Assembly (NCBI GenBank): GCA_905235485.1
Contig: CAJOLY010000003.1
Span: 1-38,850, forward strand
Source: an uncultured Clostridia bacterium
Lineage (GTDB): Bacteria; Bacillota; Clostridia; Christensenellales; UBA1242
DNA length: 38,850 nt
Direction of reading: 5' to 3'
Made by a program: the position numbers and the translations under genes. Below are positions 5,002-38,094 of the stretch, in pieces (within the stretch, counting starts at the first letter, position 1; each line of letters starts with the position of its first letter). The notes under the pieces are model-generated. The model made no database searches. It was not told the origin of the DNA and worked only from the letters and a program-made list of their open reading frames with translations.

Positions 5002-5033
5002 ATAAAAAAAAGAGCAGTGAAATTCACTACTCT
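5002..5033 (-). terminator. Rho-independent terminator (leftward), tandem with previous
   Basis: AGAGTAGTGAATTTCACTGCTCT hairpin then TTTTTTTT, directly after the stop codon of 5027-5635. Confidence 0.65.
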
Positions 5034-5635
5034 TCTTCATTTTTAATATACTTTTTAAAATCTTTTGTTATTCTATACTTGTATTTATATACTGTATCCC
5101 ATTCAACATTTCGCTGTGTTTCGCACAATCGCTTCCAAACTTGTTTTGCAGTAAGTTTTTCAACAAAGAACATGATTGCTATATCTTGCTTATCTTTGGT
5201 GTAATTTAGTTCGCTACAAATATGAATAACATTATCTCTTGTAAGATGTCTTATGTCAAAATGTTTCACGTGAAACATTCTTTCCTTTCTATCTTGAATC
5301 AGCCACAAAATTAAACAATCTAAATAGGCAAATATAATTGAAGCAAAGATATACATATAAATTGGCGGACACAGAATAATAGATAACGCAAAAATCAAAT
5401 TCGTGAACACCATGCACCAAACAATGCTGTCACAATGATATGTGGTCTCAAACTTGTATCTCAAGCTAAAAAATGCAGTAAGAAAACAAACAGCCTCAAA
5501 CCACTTGCCAAATATAAACGATACAATAAAAACACTGCCCATCACTAAGAAATGATAAGGCAGTGTGTTGATAAAATATCTTAAATTATATATAAACTCT
5601 GCTTTACGTCTTATGCTATTTGTCTTGTTTGGCAT
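5027..5635 (-). CDS. Polytopic membrane protein with AgrB-like His/Cys spacing fused to C-terminal sigma-region-4/HTH-like domain
   Basis: Several TMs; RYKFETTYHCDSIVWC (H-x6-C) in AgrB-like context; C-terminal DKQDIAIMFFVEKLTAKQVWKRLCETQRNVEWDTVYKYKYRITKDFKKYI. Alternative start at 5677. Confidence 0.55.
   Translation of the reverse strand: MPNKTNSIRRKAEFIYNLRYFINTLPYHFLVMGSVFIVSFIFGKWFEAVCFLTAFFSLRYKFETTYHCDSIVWCMVFTNLIFALSIILCPPIYMYIFASIIFAYLDCLILWLIQDRKERMFHVKHFDIRHLTRDNVIHICSELNYTKDKQDIAIMFFVEKLTAKQVWKRLCETQRNVEWDTVYKYKYRITKDFKKYIKNEEE
5260..5279. promoter_or_regulatory. parS: Exact parS site (ParB/Spo0J binding palindrome)
   Basis: Core TGTTTCACGTGAAACA at 5262-5277; full 20-bp palindrome AATGTTTCACGTGAAACATT. 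Confidence 0.85.
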
Positions 5636-5795
5636 CTTTTTTTGCGTTTTCAAGTTTCTCTTTGCACAATGCCTCATATTCTACAGCAAACTCATATGTT
5701 TTCTTTGCTCGAATAGCATTTTGTTGTGCTTTAAGATATTCTTTTTCATATTTCTCAACCATTTTGTTGAGGTATGGTGGTAACCATTCTGCCAT
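5616..5795 (-). CDS. 59-aa charged coiled-coil protein (MAEWLPPYLNKMVEKYEKEYLKAQQ...)
   Basis: Read from minus strand between the two membrane protein genes; RBS aaaggagaaga. Confidence 0.5.
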   Translation of the reverse strand: MAEWLPPYLNKMVEKYEKEYLKAQQNAIRAKKTYEFAVEYEALCKEKLENAKKDAKQDK

Positions 5796-20611: not shown

Positions 20612-21835
20612 TTAGACAGAAGTAACAGCAATGTTAAGTGTTGTGTCTTCGCCAGCAACTACAATTGTTGTTCCATCATATGTGTATCCGTCTTTAGCAA
20701 CAGTTACATCATAAACACCAGCGGCTACAGAAGAGATTGAGTAAGCACCAGTTGATTCAGCACTTGTTCCAGTCTTTGTCGTTCCGCTAAATTTCTCTTT
20801 CAATGTTACTGTAGCACCTTCGATAGCTGTTGAACCAGCCTTAACAGTTCCGCTTACAGTAGCAGTTGAAGATGTGATAACAAATTGAATGTGTTTCCAT
20901 TCAGCACCATAATCGATACCAGCTTGTCCATAGATTTGACCTTTTTCAGCAGCACCGGTTTTTGAGAGAGCTTCATAGAAGAAGTTTCCTTTGCCCGGAA
21001 CATCAAGTTCTGCGATAGCAAGTTCACTCATGTTCAAGAGCAAATATGTTCCGGCAACGATGTTTGCATCATAGTTTACAACAACTTCACCGAAGTTTGT
21101 CATAATTTTTGTGATGGCAAGACCACCTTCAGTTCTGCTTGCTGGAAGTCCAAATCCTGTAGCCGAGCTAAATGCAGAGTTGATTGTGTTAAGGTCTGCT
21201 GGATTGCACCAGAGTTCCATTCTTCCACCATCGAAAACAAATCCGTTTGCAATAGCAGCTGTAATTCCATTGTTAAGCAATGCTCCTGACATTGAAGCAC
21301 CAGCAATTACGTTTGTTGTAATACCAGCAACAAGTCCTCTTGATTTCCAAGCGGTAGCATTGTTAGAACCTGCTTGATATTGTCCATTGATAAGAGTGTA
21401 GTTAAGGTCTTTCTTTTGTTTGAGCATTTTTCCAGAAATTTGGAAGTCAAGTTCATTTGGAACATTATTTGCTTGTCCAGCAATATTAAGACCTGCCATT
21501 GTGCCATTAGCACTTTGTTTCAAATAAGAAACATCAACAGAATCTTGGAAAATCTGGATGCAGTTGTCTTGTTGATTTCTTGTGATTGGTGATGCGTTTG
21601 GAGCAACAGTTGAACTTTGTTCAGAAATTTCTGGTTGAGAACCATCTCCTACATCAAACCCACTTGACAATGCAAATTGAATTGAATTTACTCTTCTTTT
21701 ACCAATTCCAAAAATGCCATCGCCAAATGCCTTTCCTCTTGTATAGACTGCATCGAGCAATCTTGTGTTGTTGTCTGTTGTTGAATAAAGCAATCCACTA
21801 TAATTCAACACGGTATCTGTATAAGCAGTAGCCAT
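20612..21835 (-). CDS. Major capsid protein with C-terminal CarboxypepD_reg/Ig-like beta-sandwich
   Basis: 407 aa after scaffold; C-terminal SGTVKAGSTAIEGATVTLKEKFSGTTKTGTSAESTGAYSISSVAAGVYDVTVAKDGY. Confidence 0.7.
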   Translation of the reverse strand: MATAYTDTVLNYSGLLYSTTDNNTRLLDAVYTRGKAFGDGIFGIGKRRVNSIQFALSSGFDVGDGSQPEISEQSSTVAPNASPITRNQQDNCIQIFQDSVDVSYLKQSANGTMAGLNIAGQANNVPNELDFQISGKMLKQKKDLNYTLINGQYQAGSNNATAWKSRGLVAGITTNVIAGASMSGALLNNGITAAIANGFVFDGGRMELWCNPADLNTINSAFSSATGFGLPASRTEGGLAITKIMTNFGEVVVNYDANIVAGTYLLLNMSELAIAELDVPGKGNFFYEALSKTGAAEKGQIYGQAGIDYGAEWKHIQFVITSSTATVSGTVKAGSTAIEGATVTLKEKFSGTTKTGTSAESTGAYSISSVAAGVYDVTVAKDGYTYDGTTIVVAGEDTTLNIAVTSV

Positions 21836-21869
21836 TTTTATTTTCTCCCTTAAAATAATATTTATGCTT

Positions 21870-22544
21870 TTACTTTAACTGGATTCCTTGTGCTTGAGCC
21901 TCACGAATGAGAGAACTCATTTTTGCAAGGTTGCCAACTTTTTTTGCTTCATCATATTGACTCTGTAAAGCATTAACACTTGAGCCATCTGCGAAGTTCA
22001 TATTTGGCGAATTTTTCTGCAACTCATCAATGATAGACTTCTTTTGTTTTTCAAGTCTAGCCTTTTGAGTGTCACATACTCTTTGGATTCTTCCAAGACT
22101 TATTTCAGTATCTTCATTTACAAAATCAAGATAAACGTCCATATCATCTTCATCGAATCCAGCCTTTGTAAGCATTGTTCTCGCTTTCTCACGGTTGAGT
22201 TCAACTCTTTCCTCTCTGAACTCTTGCATCATTCTTTCTCTTTCTTCTGCAAGTTTTTCAGCTTCAGTCATTTTTGCTTGACGTTCAATGTCGGCTCTGA
22301 TTTGTGCTTCAAGGTCTTTTTTAATAGACTTCTTGTAATCCTCAGCATTGAAGGTGTTTTCGCCATCAGTTACTTTGGCATTTTTAAGTGCAGACTCTTC
22401 GCCTTTCTTTCTCATAAACGCAGCAAAGTTATCAAACTCTTCTTGTGTTTTGAAAGTTCTAAATGCTTTCTCGACTTTTGCAGCCTCGTCATTGTTGTCT
22501 GTAACATCATTTGTTACTTGTGAATTGTTCTCTAATTCAGCCAT
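21870..22544 (-). CDS. Capsid scaffolding protein
   Basis: MAELENNSQVTND... Glu/Lys-rich coiled coil between portal and capsid; ATG with cgggaggatatt RBS. Confidence 0.65.
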   Translation of the reverse strand: MAELENNSQVTNDVTDNNDEAAKVEKAFRTFKTQEEFDNFAAFMRKKGEESALKNAKVTDGENTFNAEDYKKSIKKDLEAQIRADIERQAKMTEAEKLAEERERMMQEFREERVELNREKARTMLTKAGFDEDDMDVYLDFVNEDTEISLGRIQRVCDTQKARLEKQKKSIIDELQKNSPNMNFADGSSVNALQSQYDEAKKVGNLAKMSSLIREAQAQGIQLK

Positions 22545-22643
22545 AATATCCTCCCGTTTTAGGTTCGTCAACCATAAATTCCGTTTAATGCCCGTCGGCA
22601 AGTTTCCAGTTTATAGTCCTGTAGACTTTATTAAAAACTGCAA

Positions 22644-24221
22644 TTAAGCAGTCTCAATAACATTTTTGTCCTCTGTCACATTCACAACTTCTTTTTTGTC
22701 AGCCTCTTTCTTTGCTTGAGCAATAGCATAAGCCTCGTCAAGTTTTGTTGTGTCAATAGCATCCGCAACAAGTTTTGTAATCTCATATGCCGTTTGCCTA
22801 TTAACCCCTGCACCAATAAGTGTGGCAAACGCTTGAGTTTGCTCTTGCATATCTTCAATGTTATTTCTAACATCCTTGATAATGACATCTTTTGCTTTCA
22901 AGTCTTTAAATGGACAGTCTGGAATTTCTTTCGCAATTTGCAAAACTAGCCTTAGAAAATCTCTCTCTGTTGCTTTAACGCAATTCACTGTTATGCCTGC
23001 AAAGTCTTCAAGTTCAGTAAACCCATTTCTTCTTTCAACCGCCTTGCCAGTGTCTTGCCCAACACCTTGCCCTCTTGTAGGGATAAACAATGCTTCGTAA
23101 ATTTCTTGCTTTATAAATCCAAGAAGGTCTTTGACCTGTGTTATGTCAAGTGGAACATCCATGATTGTTGCATCTGGCTGTGTTGTTGCTCCTTCATTTG
23201 ATTCGATTGGAAGCAAGTTTGCTTGCAAGTATTTTAGAATAGTATCATAAACTGGGTTTTTACCCTCATCATCCCACTCGCCAACATAAATATCTCTAAG
23301 TTTAAGAACATAGTCAACATTTTGTTGAATTTTGTCAATAGCACAAGAGATTATCATGTTTGAGGCATTGATAAGGTCGATTGCGAGTTCAAAGTCGTTG
23401 ATTCTTTGTGGGTTTCTTTGATACTCAAGTAATGGAATGTTTCTCTCTGCAACAACCAATCTGTCTGAAGTTGATAGGTCAACATCATATGGAAATCCTA
23501 AAAGTTGAGTAGGCATACCAGCAATTATAATATTGAATGGCTGTGGAACATAGAGTTGTCCATCATACTTGAATACCCACTTATGCCACTTTGTAAACAC
23601 ATTAAAAATTGTGTAAGTTTTGTAAATTGCGTTTTGTCCTTCACCCTCAAGCTCCTCTGTATCATAGAATATTACACCAAGAACTTTTTCTTTGTCTATT
23701 GTGTTAGAATAAACACAAAATGCTTGTCGAGGGTCAATGTCAGTAACTGTTTTAAAAAACATACCTTCTTCAATTTCTTCATTTGTTGGTCTTTCGATAT
23801 ATTTATATCCAAGTGCAGACCAAGATGAATTGAGCGTGCACTCTGTTAAGTGTCCAGCATAGTTGTCTGCGGCAAGAGCATCATTAAGTTGTTTTACTTG
23901 CTCTTGTTTTGATTGCTCTGCTTGAGCACTTATAAACTGAAATGGCTTGCCAAAACAATAAGTATTTTTTCGGACACAAGCAATGTAGCAAATTGGCTTT
24001 GAAATTTTGTTGTTTATTTCTGGTCTTGATGTCTTATCTTTGCTCAAAATGTCCGTTTGGTTAAAAAAGTAGTCATAGAGTCTATTCATTTCCGCAATGT
24101 TTTGTTTGTGAATAGGCATAGCCTTTTCAATTATTTCTGGAATAATTGCAGCATCGTGAGCTAGGTCGCCATTTGGGATTAAACTCGTGAGAATTTTATA
24201 TCTACCATAATGTTTTGCCAT
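22644..24221 (-). CDS. Portal protein (SPP1 gp6-like)
   Basis: 525 aa; RPEINNKISKPICYIACVRKNTYCFGKPFQF, LLEYQRNPQRINDFELAIDLINA, LLGFIKQEIYEALFIPTRG; next to large terminase. Confidence 0.75.
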   Translation of the reverse strand: MAKHYGRYKILTSLIPNGDLAHDAAIIPEIIEKAMPIHKQNIAEMNRLYDYFFNQTDILSKDKTSRPEINNKISKPICYIACVRKNTYCFGKPFQFISAQAEQSKQEQVKQLNDALAADNYAGHLTECTLNSSWSALGYKYIERPTNEEIEEGMFFKTVTDIDPRQAFCVYSNTIDKEKVLGVIFYDTEELEGEGQNAIYKTYTIFNVFTKWHKWVFKYDGQLYVPQPFNIIIAGMPTQLLGFPYDVDLSTSDRLVVAERNIPLLEYQRNPQRINDFELAIDLINASNMIISCAIDKIQQNVDYVLKLRDIYVGEWDDEGKNPVYDTILKYLQANLLPIESNEGATTQPDATIMDVPLDITQVKDLLGFIKQEIYEALFIPTRGQGVGQDTGKAVERRNGFTELEDFAGITVNCVKATERDFLRLVLQIAKEIPDCPFKDLKAKDVIIKDVRNNIEDMQEQTQAFATLIGAGVNRQTAYEITKLVADAIDTTKLDEAYAIAQAKKEADKKEVVNVTEDKNVIETA

Positions 24222-24245
24222 TACTTAGCCTCCTACATTGATATT

Positions 24246-24275
24246 TTATTATCATGATTTTAAAAATGTCAAACG
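24246..24275 (-). promoter_or_regulatory. Sigma-A-like promoter (leftward) before portal gene
   Basis: Minus strand TTGACA-N18-TAAAAT. Confidence 0.45.
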
Positions 24276-24311
24276 TTTTTGCCATATTTTTGTAAAATTT
24301 TGAAAATTTTT

Positions 24312-26315
24312 TCAAAAAAATCTACATATAGTGGCTTTTTCAACATCTACTCCCGCTATTTTGCCTAGTGCTTCTCTCTTAAATATAAATTCTTCAGAGA
24401 ACATTGACAAGCAATCAGGAAAGTCATCGTGGTTCTTTCTTGAATTGTCTTTGCTATTCCAGTTGTTAAGTTGTTCCATAGCTTGAAAAAGTGGATGTCC
24501 AACAGGAATTGTGTCCTTTTGAGGGAAAACAATATAATTTTTTATTGTTTCTTCGTTGTTTAAGATTCTTTGTGCCTTTGAACCAAGATTTACCTTTCTT
24601 GCTGTAAATCTTTCTCTAAATTTACATGACTTATAGCCAAGTTCTACACATCTATCTCTCAAAAATGCGGAACTCGTGTTGCTAGTGTTGTTTTCTACAC
24701 AACATTCAATGGTGGAGTTGTGAATAACCTTGTAGCAAACTTTATCTCTAAACTCATTTTTTGGGTCATTTAATATGCCAAGAGATTTTTGTTCAAACAC
24801 AATGTCAGTCAAATAATAAAGTCCATCGGATTCACAATGCCTTAAAAATATACTAACAAAGAAGTCATTTCCATTTGTTCGAGTCAGGTCCATCATACAA
24901 AGAGAATAATGAGACAAATCTTCTGGCAGTTCACCCCAAACATAGTGTTGCAAGGTTTCATCTGCAAAAGTCTTAGGTTCTCTGCTATCTCTATGTTGCC
25001 TATAAATCAAGTTATAAACATAAGGCTTGCCTCTTGAAATAAAGTATTCCTTCTTTTCTTGTAACTTTTCATTCGAATATAGGTCTGGAGCAACAGAATT
25101 GCCTTCGACATCTTCAATGTCTACCAAACAAACAGCACATTTCCCATCTGGTGTATATCTAACATTCTTAAGTGTTGGGTGTTGAACAAGCCCTTTTTTA
25201 TCCCACATGTTTATAAAAGCGTTTTGAACATCATTTTCGTTATACATTGTTCCCATGATAACGATAGGACAGTCATCATCATCACTTCTGTCAAGAACAT
25301 CAGACATAACTTTGTCTGTAATTTTCTTGTGAAGCTCATCATTATCCATAGTTTCTTGTCCATCTGACAAGTCATCTATAATTGCCCCTAATAATGCTCT
25401 CTTACCATTGATACCTGCACCCTCACCAAACAAAAACATTGAGTCTGAGCACTCTGCATTGCAATCTTTAAGTAGATATTTTTCTCTGCTCTCATAAACA
25501 AATGGTTTATTTTTTCCAGCACCAGTTTGATATTTTCTAAATTCTGGAAAAATATTAACAAATTTGTCATCTGTCATCATTTTGTAAACTTGAGAGCCAT
25601 AGTTATAAGCATTTTCGGCATTGTTTGTCATTCTAATTATGCCAGTTTCTTTAAAGCGAATTTGATGGTGTGCTAGCATAAGGTTGGTGTAGACATTTGC
25701 TTCATAGGTTTTGCCACTACTTGGTGGCACGCAAACAACAAGTCTCTTTGGGTTGAATCCATCATCAAACTCCATGCCCATTTTTACCGCAAGAAGCCTA
25801 TCAAAACAAGGCATTACATCGTGCAAAAGTGGTCGTCTTGGTGGTAATTTTCGCTTCTTGAAAGGCTTATCATAATCCCAAACATCCATTTGTCTTTCGC
25901 TAAACCACCTTGCTGCAATGAACATCATCTTGTTAGATAAATTTGAGATGTCAAGTATTTTTTGCGTTTGAATTGTATCAAGCCCCACTTCCCTATGTTT
26001 TTTAAAATAATAAGTGAGCATATTTTGAGTGGCAAGATAAAGTCTGTTTGCATAAGAACTAATTTGGTAATCAAACAGGATTACGGGTGCTGGCTCATAA
26101 TGCAAGTTTGAAATACAATAGTCAAGGTATAATTTTTGTCCTTCTTCAACTTTGTTGCACGCAGCAATCAAAAGATTTAAGCGGTCATTGAAAAAACGAA
26201 TCGGCTCATTTTTTTTAACCAATTCGTTGATAGAAGCAATACAGTTATCAATGTATCTCTCCACTTTTCCAGTTGCTAACATAAAATCTTTTTCTTCCAT
26301 ACTACTCCACTGCAC
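24312..26315 (-). CDS. terL: Terminase large subunit
   Basis: VCVPPSSGKTYEANVYTNLML (Walker-A-like), GAIIDDLSDG, MMDLTRTNGNDFF and NHDDFPDCLSMF nuclease-region motifs. Confidence 0.85.
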   Translation of the reverse strand: MQWSSMEEKDFMLATGKVERYIDNCIASINELVKKNEPIRFFNDRLNLLIAACNKVEEGQKLYLDYCISNLHYEPAPVILFDYQISSYANRLYLATQNMLTYYFKKHREVGLDTIQTQKILDISNLSNKMMFIAARWFSERQMDVWDYDKPFKKRKLPPRRPLLHDVMPCFDRLLAVKMGMEFDDGFNPKRLVVCVPPSSGKTYEANVYTNLMLAHHQIRFKETGIIRMTNNAENAYNYGSQVYKMMTDDKFVNIFPEFRKYQTGAGKNKPFVYESREKYLLKDCNAECSDSMFLFGEGAGINGKRALLGAIIDDLSDGQETMDNDELHKKITDKVMSDVLDRSDDDDCPIVIMGTMYNENDVQNAFINMWDKKGLVQHPTLKNVRYTPDGKCAVCLVDIEDVEGNSVAPDLYSNEKLQEKKEYFISRGKPYVYNLIYRQHRDSREPKTFADETLQHYVWGELPEDLSHYSLCMMDLTRTNGNDFFVSIFLRHCESDGLYYLTDIVFEQKSLGILNDPKNEFRDKVCYKVIHNSTIECCVENNTSNTSSAFLRDRCVELGYKSCKFRERFTARKVNLGSKAQRILNNEETIKNYIVFPQKDTIPVGHPLFQAMEQLNNWNSKDNSRKNHDDFPDCLSMFSEEFIFKREALGKIAGVDVEKATICRFF

Positions 26316-27710: not shown

Positions 27711-27960
27711 CTAACACAAACTCCCTATCAAGAATATCTAGGGCAGATTGTCTATCAACAACCTCTATTGCATGGCTATCAAGCAACAAAAACAACTTCT
27801 TGAGGCTTGCTAGATGCTCATCATTAGGTCGTCTCACCCTGCTCTCCCAAGTCCTATATGCAACATCACTGACTTTTATGTATCGGCAAATGTCGTATTG
27901 CTTTAAGTAGAACTGCTTCCTTAAGTCTCGTATCATTGGCAAACTAAATGTAATTTTCAT
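27697..27960 (-). CDS. HTH (XRE-like) protein
   Basis: MKITFSLPMIRDLRKQFYLKQYDICRYIKVSDVAYRTWESRVRRPNDEHL. Confidence 0.55.
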   Translation of the reverse strand: MKITFSLPMIRDLRKQFYLKQYDICRYIKVSDVAYRTWESRVRRPNDEHLASLKKLFLLLDSHAIEVVDRQSALDILDREFVLDGEE

Positions 27961-27974
27961 ATTTATAAATCCTT

Positions 27975-28965
27975 TTAGTGAGACTTGGTGGGCTCGAACC
28001 ACTTTCTGCTATCCCATATAGAGCCTCATAAACCAAAAATGTGGGTCATCGCATGCTGAAGCCAACCACGCTCTCCACATATTCAGTTTTTAACAAGTGA
28101 CTTGCCTCAGGTATAAAGAATTTAATATGTAAGAAAAATGCAATAAAACTCGAAATAGCATTTTGACAATATCTCTTTGAGGTAATGGTAATTCAAACGC
28201 ATAAATTTTTTGCTTGGATGAAATCATCGCCACTTGCTTAGGAATGCGTGAGAGTTGCACTCACTAAAACTGCTCATTCCATAAAAGTGCGACATCATCA
28301 CCTAGGACCGACCCCTGCGAACACAAGGGCTGACTTGTCGCACCGCAACATGCCCTATGGCTTCAACGAGTCGCGTGAACACGTAACCCTCCACTTTCGA
28401 GCATATTTGCATCACTTGGCAAAACTTTTCTAAAAAATCCAAGCACATTGAATTCAACCTCGCCCTTTCGTGGCGAATCACGGTTGCAACATTCTAACCT
28501 ATTGCAGCAACGACAGTTTCTCCTCAGTGAAGAGGGGCGTAGAGCTCTAGATACTCTACTGGCAGGTGGGGAAGGACTCGAACCTCCGCATACCAGTTTT
28601 GGAGACTGGCGCCTTTACCAACTTGGCTACTCACCTATACGGGCTGTCTAGGGAAATAGAAATGAAAAAACTAAACAGCCCAAACATTTAGGATGCGGAC
28701 CTCGGGAATTGCACCCAAGAAACCTATGTCCGCAAGGAGGAGGCTGTCACAGGGAAAATACAAGAAACCTGTTGAGCCTCAATGGATAAAGTGGCTGCAG
28801 CTCGCCACACGATGTCTGATTTTGCGAAAAAATAAGGAGATTCTTTGCAAATTTAAAAATACTTAGAACAAAAATGAAGATAGACACACATTACTCACAA
28901 CATAAGGCTGTTGCCACCGCTGCTAGAAATAAAGGGGTGTAAGGCAATCTCGCATCCTTACATAC
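27975..28965 (-). ncRNA. Candidate large structured non-coding RNA region (transcript ends not mapped)
   Basis: About 1 kb without credible CDS, locally GC-rich, promoter at 28968-28997, many perfect helices (28241-28280, 28287-28343, 28641-28681, 28694-28734, 28740-28780, 28791-28808), embedded tRNA-Trp. Confidence 0.5.
28560..28636 (-). tRNA. trnW: tRNA-Trp (anticodon CCA), encoded 3' CCA
   Basis: Cloverleaf AGGTGAG TA GCCA AGTTGGTAAA GGC G CCAGT CTCCAAA ACTGG TATGC GGAGG TTCGAGT CCTTC CCCACCT G CCA; one A/C acceptor mismatch; G73 discriminator. Confidence 0.9.
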
Positions 28966-28967
28966 AC

Positions 28968-28997
28968 ATTGTAAAACATAATAACAATATTTGTCAA
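28968..28997 (-). promoter_or_regulatory. Strong sigma-A-like promoter firing into the non-coding region
   Basis: TTGACA (28992-28997) - 18 nt - TACAAT (28968-28973) on minus strand. Confidence 0.65.
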
Positions 28998-29235
28998 GTA
29001 AATTGAACACAAAAATAAAAAATTCATAATAACAACTTGCCGAAAGAGCCTTTTTTGCTATTTTCGGCGATTTTTTGAGGTTGGATGGTTTTTACCACAA
29101 AACCGTAAAAACTTTGCTATTTCGCTATGTATTTCTTCTTGTCCTTCCATTCCCACTTGCTAAATTACGAATGCTCCAACTTTTCTCGCCCATACCACCC
29201 GCCCTTTGTGCACGGATACCTCTTTACACTTCGGC

Positions 29236-33346: not shown

Positions 33347-33617
33347 ATATAACTTGAAAAAGACAAAAGACGAGTTTACCGGCGACTTTAACTATCAAAG
33401 AGAATTTGACAACGAAAGTAAGAACACAATTATAACTCTTATTGTTGACGAGTTAGACGAAACGACTTGCCGACTTATGAAAGCAACATTTTTTAAAAAG
33501 AGATATGACAGCAAATATCACTGCATGGGGACTTTTGGAGAGCCAAAATATATTGAAAATATAAAAAATGACATAAAGGAATACGAGGAGAATTTAACAC
33601 ATGAAAAAACAATTTAG
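33306..33617 (+). CDS. Hypothetical early protein
   Basis: MEEEIKTASYYINKYNLKKTK...; RBS aaagggagaaaatgaaa. Confidence 0.5.
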   Translation: MEEEIKTASYYINKYNLKKTKDEFTGDFNYQREFDNESKNTIITLIVDELDETTCRLMKATFFKKRYDSKYHCMGTFGEPKYIENIKNDIKEYEENLTHEKTI

Positions 33618-33942
33618 ACGAGGCGAGATATATTGGGCGAACAACACTTATTCAAACGGGCATATTCAATCATCACTCCGCCCATATTTGATTGTGTCAA
33701 ATAATTATAACAATGAATATTCTGGCACTCTTACAGCAATTCCGCTTACGACAGCTGACAAAAAATTCTTGCCAACACATTTTAATATATTTGTAAACAA
33801 CAAGTGGAACACAGTTTTGTGCGAGCATATAACAAGTATTGACAAAACCGAAACACAGGGCTTTGTCGCACAACTTGACGACCAACAAATGAAACAGGTC
33901 GAAGAAAAAATAAAAATTCAATTAGATTTAAAGGGAGAATAA
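33601..33942 (+). CDS. MazF/PemK-like endoribonuclease (type II toxin family)
   Basis: FRRGEIYWANNTYSNGHIQSSLRPYLIVSNNYNNEYSGTLTAIPLTT...LPTHF. Confidence 0.75.
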   Translation: MKKQFRRGEIYWANNTYSNGHIQSSLRPYLIVSNNYNNEYSGTLTAIPLTTADKKFLPTHFNIFVNNKWNTVLCEHITSIDKTETQGFVAQLDDQQMKQVEEKIKIQLDLKGE

Positions 33943-34737: not shown

Positions 34738-35784
34738 ATGGAAGAAACAAAGTCCATACAAACATTTGGAAATGAACTACAAGCCGTTCTAGGGAAAATG
34801 GACATACCTTGTTTTTTGAGAAATGTTGAAGAAAGCATTGTTGCCAACATTTATGAGTTTAGCATAAACAAACTAGACAAGTTTAAAAAATTAAATAATG
34901 CTCTTGATGTTATAAACCTACTCAAAAAAACACAACTGCGACTTGGACAAAGCAAAAATTATGACTTTGCCATATATGAAGATAAACAAACTCAAAGCAT
35001 TGGCTTGGCTGCAAACTTTGAGAGTTATTCATTTGCGAACCCTTATTCTGCATTGTTGGGAATTGACAACTCGGGAGAACTTGTTGGCATTGACTTTACA
35101 AAAGCCACCCACACATTGATTTCTGGGTCAACAGGCATGGGCAAGACTACTCTATTAAATAATATTATATATTCGCTAACCAAAAATAGTGATGATGTTT
35201 CTATTCACTTAATAGATGTCAAAAGAACTCTGACAATATGGAACGACTGCCCACAAGTAAAGAGTGTCGATTGTGGCGAATACCCTGCTTATTGGCGACT
35301 TTATCAAATTGCACAAGAACTTGACGACCGACTTGAAAGTTTATCAAAACAAAAATTGCTAAAAGCCGATGAAAAAACTTGTCCATATATTTTTGTTATC
35401 ATTGATGAACTTTCCGACCTTATGTTTTCATCTATTAAAAAAGATATTGAAGAATTGCTAGTCCATATTGCACAAGTTGGCAGAGCTGTAAATATTTGTC
35501 TTATTCTTGCAACACAAAACCCACTTGTAAGTGTTTGCACAAGTTTAATTAAAGCAAACTGTCCAACAAGAATAGCTTTGAAAGCGATTTCTCAAAGAGA
35601 TAGCATAAACATTCTAGGCAATAAGCACTCATACGAACTCAAAGGTGTTGGCGATTGTATAATTCGCCCTGCATACTACCCACTCGAACACTCTTTCAAG
35701 GCATTTTACATTGATGACAAAGAAATATTAGAATATATACAAGCAAAAAAGGAGAATACTCATGCGACTAAAAAGAGAAAGTGA
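34738..35784 (+). CDS. FtsK/SpoIIIE/HerA-type DNA translocase ATPase
   Basis: THTLISGSTGMGKTTLLNNIIYSL (Walker A), YIFVIIDELSDLM (Walker B), ILATQNP sensor, HIAQVGRAVNI. Confidence 0.8.
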   Translation: MEETKSIQTFGNELQAVLGKMDIPCFLRNVEESIVANIYEFSINKLDKFKKLNNALDVINLLKKTQLRLGQSKNYDFAIYEDKQTQSIGLAANFESYSFANPYSALLGIDNSGELVGIDFTKATHTLISGSTGMGKTTLLNNIIYSLTKNSDDVSIHLIDVKRTLTIWNDCPQVKSVDCGEYPAYWRLYQIAQELDDRLESLSKQKLLKADEKTCPYIFVIIDELSDLMFSSIKKDIEELLVHIAQVGRAVNICLILATQNPLVSVCTSLIKANCPTRIALKAISQRDSINILGNKHSYELKGVGDCIIRPAYYPLEHSFKAFYIDDKEILEYIQAKKENTHATKKRK

Positions 35785-36223: not shown

Positions 36224-36436
36224 GTGCTTTTCATGAAGGCTGATGATGTGGCAAAAACTTATGGCATAAATCGTTCTGTCGTTTACAAGCGTATAAAAAA
36301 TCACACTTATAGAGTAAACGAATACAATGAAGTTTTGGTTGCAGATGTTGTCAAAGTCATGGAACAAGGGGTTAAAAAGGGCAGACCTGTCGGCTCAGTC
36401 GACAAAGTGCCAAGAAGAAAAAAGGAGATAGAATGA
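36224..36436 (+). CDS. HTH protein with basic GRP-containing tail
   Basis: DDVAKTYGINRSVVYKRIKNHTYRVNEYNEVLVADVVKVMEQGVKKGRPVGSVDKVPRRKK; GTG start spaced from aaaggaggtg. Confidence 0.55.
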   Translation: MLFMKADDVAKTYGINRSVVYKRIKNHTYRVNEYNEVLVADVVKVMEQGVKKGRPVGSVDKVPRRKKEIE

Positions 36437-38094
36437 AAAAAATAATAATAAAAGAACTTAAAATTCACAACTTTAAGTGTTATGCTGAAGTAAATTTTAA
36501 GTTTGATGAGGGCAAAAATGTCCTCATGGGCGAAACGGGTTGTGGCAAAACCACCATTCGAGATGCTTATTTATGGTGCTTTGGTTTTGATTGCGACTTT
36601 GCTCCCAAGATTGATGACACACTTGTAGAAAATATAGACACACTTGTTGAAGTTTTAATGTCTATCGATAGTATTGATTATTCTTTTAAAAGACTAAACA
36701 AACAAAAATGGACAAATTCTGGGCAATTTGCTGGCAATGATAGCAAATTCTACATTGATGACATTTCAAAGACTGCAACCAATTTTAAGGCTGAGCTTGC
36801 AAGCATATTTGAAGTGAACGATTACAACAATGTTAGACTATTGCTTGATTTAAGCGCTTTTAACAATGACAATGGAACAAGGTGGACTTGGAAAGAAAGA
36901 AGAAATTTCTTGTTTGGGTTACTTAATATAGATTTAAAAATAAAAGACATTGAAGCTAGTGAGGACTTTGACCCTATTCGAGAATATCTTTCAAAAGGGT
37001 TAGACGAAACAGAAATTGCCTCATCTCTTAATGCTAAAAAGAAAGACATCGACAATTCCCTCAAGAGAAATAAAGTTTTGCTAGATGACAAAAGAGCCAC
37101 AATAAAAGAATATTCTATAATAAATTATGATGTTCTTGTTAGCGAAAGAGCAAGGCTTGAACAAGACATTGAGGACTTGACACAAGGGCAGTTGCAAAAG
37201 CGAATTGAACTACAGAAACAAATAAAAGATTTGGAATTTTCAATAGCAAATTGCGACCAAAGAAAAGAGGTGCTACTAAATTCTGAACAACAATTAGAGA
37301 CCGCTTCGCAAAATCTATTTTCAACAACTCTTTCTGACAAATGCCCAACTTGTGGAACTAAACTAGATAATAAAAAAATGCTGACTTTGAAAGCCACTTT
37401 TGAATTAGACAAAATGCAAAAACTGTCAGAACTTCATGATGAGGCTGAAAATTGCCGTTTAGAGGCTCAAAAACTTGAGGAACGAATAACAAGTCAAAAA
37501 CTTGAATTAAATCGGCTCACGGGGCAATTAGACCAATATTTTAAGGGGTCTGGGGCAAAAGCGGAGTTTGACAAATCCATGCAAGACTTAAAGCAACAAA
37601 TTTATGACATAAATCAAGAGTTGTATAAAGGCGCCTTGATTGATAAATTAAGTTGTGAAATTGAAAATATAAAAGAAGAAAATAAAAAGTTGCTTAACCA
37701 ACAAAAAGAACTTCTGAAACAAACTGAAGCACTCAAACTTTATGTTGAAAAAAAAATAGAAATTGTTTCACGTGAAACAAAAAACAACTTCGATGGGCTT
37801 GCCTTTAAATTCTTTAAAATGAATACGGCAAATGCGGAGAATGAATACCAACCAACTTGCGAGTGCTTACTAAATGGCGTTGTTTATAAAAATTTAAGTC
37901 AAGGGCAAAAGATAATTGCCGACTTCAAAATGAATTGCGGTTTACAAAAGTTGCTTGATGTAAACGTCCCACAATTTATTGACAACAAACAAGACAACAC
38001 ATTTGACATGATTAGCGACTCGCAACAAATTGACCTTGTCACTTGTAAAGAAAGCAACATAAAAGCGAGTTTTATAAAAGGAGAAGAAAAATGA
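36433..38094 (+). CDS. SbcC/Rad50/gp46-like SMC-type ATPase
   Basis: KELKIHNFKCYAEVNFKFDEGKNVLMGETGCGKTTIRDAYLWCFG Walker A; long coiled coil with CPTCG hook. Confidence 0.75.
   Translation: MKKIIIKELKIHNFKCYAEVNFKFDEGKNVLMGETGCGKTTIRDAYLWCFGFDCDFAPKIDDTLVENIDTLVEVLMSIDSIDYSFKRLNKQKWTNSGQFAGNDSKFYIDDISKTATNFKAELASIFEVNDYNNVRLLLDLSAFNNDNGTRWTWKERRNFLFGLLNIDLKIKDIEASEDFDPIREYLSKGLDETEIASSLNAKKKDIDNSLKRNKVLLDDKRATIKEYSIINYDVLVSERARLEQDIEDLTQGQLQKRIELQKQIKDLEFSIANCDQRKEVLLNSEQQLETASQNLFSTTLSDKCPTCGTKLDNKKMLTLKATFELDKMQKLSELHDEAENCRLEAQKLEERITSQKLELNRLTGQLDQYFKGSGAKAEFDKSMQDLKQQIYDINQELYKGALIDKLSCEIENIKEENKKLLNQQKELLKQTEALKLYVEKKIEIVSRETKNNFDGLAFKFFKMNTANAENEYQPTCECLLNGVVYKNLSQGQKIIADFKMNCGLQKLLDVNVPQFIDNKQDNTFDMISDSQQIDLVTCKESNIKASFIKGEEK
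37763..37780. promoter_or_regulatory. parS: Second exact parS site
   Basis: Core TGTTTCACGTGAAACA at 37764-37779, 18-bp palindrome TTGTTTCACGTGAAACAA. Confidence 0.85.

Follow-up and report, generated by a model that had tools for sequence, protein, structure and literature searches.

Host-type parS sites on a tailed-phage contig and orphan parS sites across phages

Results

Two exact parS sites on a tailed-phage contig

The window analysed here is one entire contig (38,850 bp) of a 981-kb genome bin, which comprises 58 contigs and is 96.7% complete. Its tailed-phage genes encode an SPP1-type portal, a large terminase, a tape measure protein, and the major head and tail proteins, and the early operon includes an FtsK/SpoIIIE-like translocase (Table 1). 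The 16-mer TGTTTCACGTGAAACA is present in two exact copies, spaced 32,502 bp apart. The parS site of the chromosomal ParABS system is defined as the 16-bp palindrome TGTTNCACGTGNAACA, of which TGTTTCACGTGAAACA is the canonical form, and both copies in the window agree with this definition throughout. The 38,850 bp contain no other perfect 16-bp palindrome, and the hexamer CACGTG is found twice in the window, each time inside a parS copy. A third site was not found in the window when up to three mismatches to TGTTTCACGTGAAACA were allowed.

Table 1 Features of the phage contig (positions in the 38,850-bp window)
Feature	Position	Strand	Basis or remark
AgrB-like membrane protein gene, holds parS copy 1	5027..5677	-	Pfam AgrB 4e-11; PHROG 10353 3e-5
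parS copy 1, TGTTTCACGTGAAACA exact	5262..5277	.	Just after the AgrB-like domain; the C-terminal part of the gene follows
Head module: major head protein, portal, large terminase	20612..26315	-	Marks the contig as tailed phage
FtsK/SpoIIIE-like translocase, early operon	34738..35784	+	Pfam 2e-19; PHROG 1358 1e-56
SbcC/Rad50-like ATPase gene, holds parS copy 2	36433..38094	+	PHROG 77, E=4e-30; alignment with phage homologues
parS copy 2, TGTTTCACGTGAAACA exact	37764..37779	.	Non-conserved codons of the SbcC-like gene

The two sites lie in unrelated genes. Copy 2 encodes IVSRETKN within the SbcC-like gene on the plus strand. Alignment with three phage SbcC homologues reveals that these residues are not conserved, which leaves their codons free to hold a signal at the DNA level. 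Copy 1 encodes RMFHVKHFD within the AgrB-like gene on the minus strand and falls directly after the AgrB domain, as the Pfam match spans residues 29–125. The true start of this gene is probably near 5635. The AgrB-like protein belongs to the lysis/late region and has a C-terminal extension, and there is no recognizable AgrD peptide gene nearby.

The expected number of copies of the motif per window is 5e-6 to 3e-5 (Markov orders 0–3), which places the chance origin of two independent copies at roughly 1e-10. Chance, a coding coincidence or the binding site of another regulator is thus an extremely improbable explanation: its one supporting point is that both sites are within coding sequence, and against it stand an expectation of ~1e-5 for a single copy where two are present, the identity of both with the sites at soj-parB of the bin (see below) and the lack of conservation of the encoded residues. 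Because they are so improbable by chance and identical to the soj-parB 16-mers, the two 16-mers are, judged by their sequence, genuine chromosomal-type parS sites borne by a tailed phage. The low chance expectation, the two unrelated genes and the unconserved codons together indicate that selection acts on the DNA at both sites. A preliminary description of this stretch had reported the exact repeat 32.5 kb apart, with different peptides on opposite gene strands, and had argued for DNA-level selection over coding coincidence; the repeat and the peptides are borne out, and the argument for selection gains support from the three points just given.

The contig is a fragment of the phage genome

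The contig has no terminal repeat and is neither circular nor terminally redundant. On the left, ~110 bp are foreign to the PAPS reductase gene that follows, whose product, set beside that of a relative, is missing the N-terminal third. By eye, this ~110-bp fragment (1–115) looks alpha/beta-hydrolase-like, and it may represent an assembly chimera or a rearrangement. On the right, the early operon continues past the end of the contig. We sought the unrecovered segment in the other contigs of the bin and found no overlap and no common 24-mers; ten of the smallest contigs consist of N. A RecT gene at the right end, guessed from the gene order of Spoks, Diva and Dulem virus 39, was not confirmed by Pfam or PHROGs and was set aside.

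Six-frame searches of the window gave no ParB_N match and no ParA-type AAA_31 match. A 73-amino-acid helix-turn-helix protein has a weak match, far below the cut-off, to a model of a plasmid replication DNA-binding protein. As the contig is incomplete and replication genes would sit in the unrecovered part, the absence of par, rep and integrase genes is an absence from a fragment and is weak evidence. In Dulem virus 39, a distant relative, an integrase is annotated in the region that corresponds to the unrecovered part. The preliminary observation that no ParA, ParB or integrase gene is visible thus holds for ParA and ParB in the window and carries little weight. The FtsK-type translocase, taken in the same description as one of the hints of extrachromosomal or nucleoid-linked maintenance, is indeed present; translocases of this kind are frequent among phages (PHROGs 1358 and 3551), and it is not a sign of partition.

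The missing segment bears on the possibility that the phage has its own ParAB there, with the two sites serving as its own centromeres. Part of the early side is absent from the contig, and on a circular map the sites would flank the missing segment. Nevertheless, the sites are identical to the chromosomal consensus, and the Par systems of plasmids and phages usually employ other repeats, such as the 8-bp repeats of mycobacteriophage RedRock (PMC7157519); we regard this explanation as quite unlikely. RedRock and the plasmid prophage P1 resemble the window in a possible centromere on phage DNA; they differ in that they encode both ParA and ParB and have other parS repeats, while the recovered sequence of the window has no parAB.

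We also considered that the contig might be a misassembled region of the host chromosome, which would have undone the preliminary description. This was ruled out, as phage structural genes are found throughout the contig and the chromosomal parS sites are clustered at soj-parB.

Three further features were seen in the window. A MazF/PemK-like toxin gene (33601–33942, Pfam 1e-22) is present in the early operon and has no obvious adjoining antitoxin. The stretch 27950–29000 is richer in G+C and non-coding, with tRNA-like remnants by eye. A tRNA-Trp at 28560–28636 is 76% identical to a stretch of a host contig (C14).

The soj-parB locus and sporulation genes of the presumed host

One contig of the bin has the order gyrB-gyrA-rsmG-soj-parB. 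The identical 16-mer is present three times at this locus (7377, 7414 and 7494), beside and in soj, although the assignment of these sites to the host of the phage depends on the binning. The ParB of the bin is full-length and canonical (HTH_ParB 2e-38, ParB_N 1e-31), with Soj adjoining. Elsewhere in the bin, outside the window, there is no further copy with one mismatch or fewer, and one extra site with two mismatches was found in ~766 kb of host contigs. While the host sites lie within ~130 bp, the phage sites of identical sequence are 32.5 kb apart in unrelated genes. Clustering of the same kind is seen in another 20 family genomes: their listed parS sites fall together in one tight group, no longer than about 1.3 kb, which in one genome is split over the ends of two contigs. 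Given this tight clustering in the family, two sites 32.5 kb apart in phage genes are not chromosome-like. A lone parS on a contig of another family genome (C29 of G011) was considered as a second case and rejected, as it is the rsmG-soj-parB region of a different, contaminating bacterium.

The bin encodes Spo0A (two copies), SpoIVA and SpoVA (contigs C2, C14 and C33). By its gene content, the presumed host would be a spore-former, within the uncertainty of the binning. A genome of ~1 Mb with this set of genes is very small for a possible spore-former. The assignment of the phage contig to the bin is uncertain because its GC content is 35.7% versus 30% for the bin and its tetranucleotide correlation is 0.66, a value at or below those of the most aberrant host contigs. 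Another contig of the bin (C36, 1–12352) is by eye a further mobile element, with two tyrosine recombinases, a relaxase/mobilization-like protein and a ParB-like protein of the nuclease type.

Relatives of the phage

Searches with the terminase, SbcC and AgrB sequences revealed no close relative among viral and genome contigs, 309 genomes of the family, 396 genomes of the order, and phage records. The nearest relative is MT835537, whose major head protein is 40% identical. parS is absent from MT835537, Eggerthella phage EL753P1, Propionibacterium phage B22 and Dulem virus 39 (50 of its 59.75 kb), and an exact parS is found in none of 80 phage loci with SbcC relatives. The sites appear not to be fixed in the wider phage group, and at such distance they are unconserved. 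The preliminary description would have fallen had parS been absent from all relatives; it is absent from these four distant relatives and the 80 SbcC loci, none of them close enough to decide the matter.

Orphan parS sites across phages

A 30-base query centered on parS copy 2 matched 369 of the 50,697 phage records searched, and in 203 the best place had at least 99% identity; these 369 records include related phages that are not independent, so the number of origins is overstated, yet several realms and families are still represented. As a control we used TGTTACACGTGTAACA, in which one base is swapped between the arms and which has the same composition and is likewise a palindrome. The control query matched 12 of the 50,697 records, one exactly. 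In IMG/VR, the exact 16-mer was found in at least 120 stretches, compared with four for the control (complete scan). In a scan that left both wobble positions free, the combinations that resemble parS (T or C followed by A or G) accounted for 138 of 145 sites and the mirror combinations A...T and G...C for none. These comparisons indicate that orphan parS is strongly enriched, and strongly selected, across phages.

Among 120 viral stretches with an exact parS, many of which are partial contigs, none had Soj and one had a weak ParB-like match. Neither a chromosomal-type ParB nor Soj was found in the parS-bearing phage stretches that were read, which were complete for phi29, Athos, Dulem virus 194 and bajarodino virus 72. 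Exact sites are present in Athos (Salasmaviridae), in the Herelleviridae Bromius (three) and LP-083-2 (one), in vB_BcoS-136 (four), in the actinobacteriophages KaiHaiDragon and Kampe (two), and in the microvirus Dulem virus 194. The inovirus bajarodino virus 72 (PQ006098.1) has five exact sites in 5.8 kb, at 712, 1182, 2767, 4108 and 5764. Several of these are between genes and the virus has no ParB; the density is very high for a filamentous single-stranded DNA phage. All eight of these phages share with the window an exact parS and, in the parts read, no Soj or ParB; they differ from it in belonging to other families and hosts, with one to five exact sites that are often intergenic.

Orphan parS also occurs in virulent phages, namely phi29-like phages and the Herelleviridae of Listeria and Lactobacillus, and it is common among phages whose recorded hosts are Listeria, Lactobacillus, Enterococcus, Gordonia and Microbacterium. 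These five genera do not form endospores. Sporulation therefore cannot be the general reason for orphan parS.

Discussion

The closest precedent is phi29, in which four sites are present, each with one mismatch. parS sites for Spo0J on phi29 were reportedly described by Meijer et al. in 2005. Phi29 and other Salasmaviridae resemble the window in having parS sites that are scattered over the genome and lie mostly within genes. They have no parAB and rely on the ParB of the host; for the phage of the window, whose incomplete contig gave no ParA or ParB match, ParB would likewise come from the host, and the presumed host has sporulation genes. The differences are that the phi29 sites are TGTTTCACGTGGAACA (one mismatch), four in 19 kb, while the window, from a tailed phage unrelated to phi29, has two that are exact, and that the Spo0A-box arrangement of phi29 was not found in the window. 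Host Spo0J (ParB) reportedly entraps the genome of the virulent phi29 in Bacillus subtilis spores, together with repression of the lytic cycle by Spo0A (PMC9437464, citing Meijer et al. 2005).

We consider it probable, with some reserve, that the phage of the window uses the ParB of the host for co-segregation; the state served may be entrapment in spores or a (pseudo)lysogen that is not integrated. For ParB proteins in general, CTP-dependent loading at parS and subsequent spreading are established. Once the cell is infected, or while the phage is in a carrier, prophage or dormant state, host ParB (Spo0J) would load at the phage parS as a CTP-dependent clamp and would spread along the phage DNA. 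ParA (Soj) and/or SMC could then treat the phage DNA like the origin region and move it, or tether it, with the nucleoid. By this route phage genomes would reach both daughter cells and, by analogy with phi29, possibly the forespore, since the presumed host has sporulation genes.

The likelihood of each of the two states can be weighed separately; both are sub-cases of co-segregation by host ParB and overlap with it, so that the estimates below concern only the specific state served. Spore entrapment of the phi29 type, in which parS would bring the genome into the forespore through host Spo0J, Soj and SMC and the phage would survive in the spore, draws on the Spo0A, SpoIVA and SpoVA genes of the bin and on the phi29 precedent with its four parS-like sites. 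On the other side, the 12 Spo0A boxes (TGTCGAA) in the window compare with 7 expected, which is not significant (top 9% of comparable 7-mers), and most are inside genes with no clear promoter placement. Orphan parS is, moreover, common in phages of non-sporulating genera, and the binning is uncertain. We regard spore entrapment as possible and somewhat doubtful.

An equally doubtful possibility is the one proposed in the preliminary description, a low-copy plasmid-like prophage stabilized by the ParABS system of the host. The exact host parS and the lack of a recognized integrase in the window are in accord with it, as is the MazF/PemK-like gene of the early operon, of a kind also found on plasmids and phage-plasmids. 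However, the early/replication segment is unrecovered and may hide an integrase, as Dulem virus 39 has one there; no replication initiator was seen in the window; and virulent phages often carry orphan parS, so that parS by itself is no sign of a plasmid prophage. Thus, from the preliminary proposal of extrachromosomal or nucleoid-linked maintenance through host ParB, the reliance on a host-type ParB is likely, given the identical 16-mer at soj-parB and no ParB in the window, and the extrachromosomal prophage state is one option among several. As the gene content of the presumed host points to a spore-former, the plasmid prophage is no better a reading than spore entrapment.

The small and virulent phages bring in another mechanism, in which there is no partition at all: phage parS would draw ParB off the host origin by titration, or would recruit ParB and SMC to compact or position replicating phage DNA in the lytic cycle. 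The presence of parS in virulent phages and in small single-stranded DNA phages (the inovirus with five sites in 5.8 kb, and the microvirus), which have less need of single-copy partition, speaks for such a decoy or takeover. The window has two sites only, however, and a decoy should profit from many, although a high copy number could compensate. We judge this mechanism unlikely for the phage of the window.

A wider proposal goes beyond the single contig. Tentatively, and with a confidence slightly short of even, we suggest that parS identical to that of the host, with no par genes alongside, is a widespread trait that phages acquired convergently, extending from inoviruses and microviruses to the large Herelleviridae and across sporulating and non-sporulating hosts. 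With it, phages in general would draw on ParB-CTP clamps and SMC when positioning, segregating or protecting their DNA. Spore entrapment of phi29 would then be one special case. The phage of the window joins the known phi29-type cases of phage-borne host parS, and the wider cross-family pattern is the more interesting result. We found no report of this broad pattern in the literature searched, many subscription papers being beyond reach.

If phages commonly carry the centromere of the host, then host ParB is a resource that they exploit without partition proteins of their own making. This would explain the persistence of non-integrated phage DNA in dividing or sporulating cells, and it predicts that ParB ChIP-seq of infected cells would give peaks on the phage DNA. 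The 2005 observation on phi29 would also extend to many phage families, including phages of non-sporulating hosts.

A separate observation concerns the control palindrome, which is otherwise nearly missing. Eight copies of TGTTACACGTGTAACA are present on a single 23-kb viral contig (IMGVR_UViG_3300037423_000235), where they possibly form a variant centromere or an operator array.
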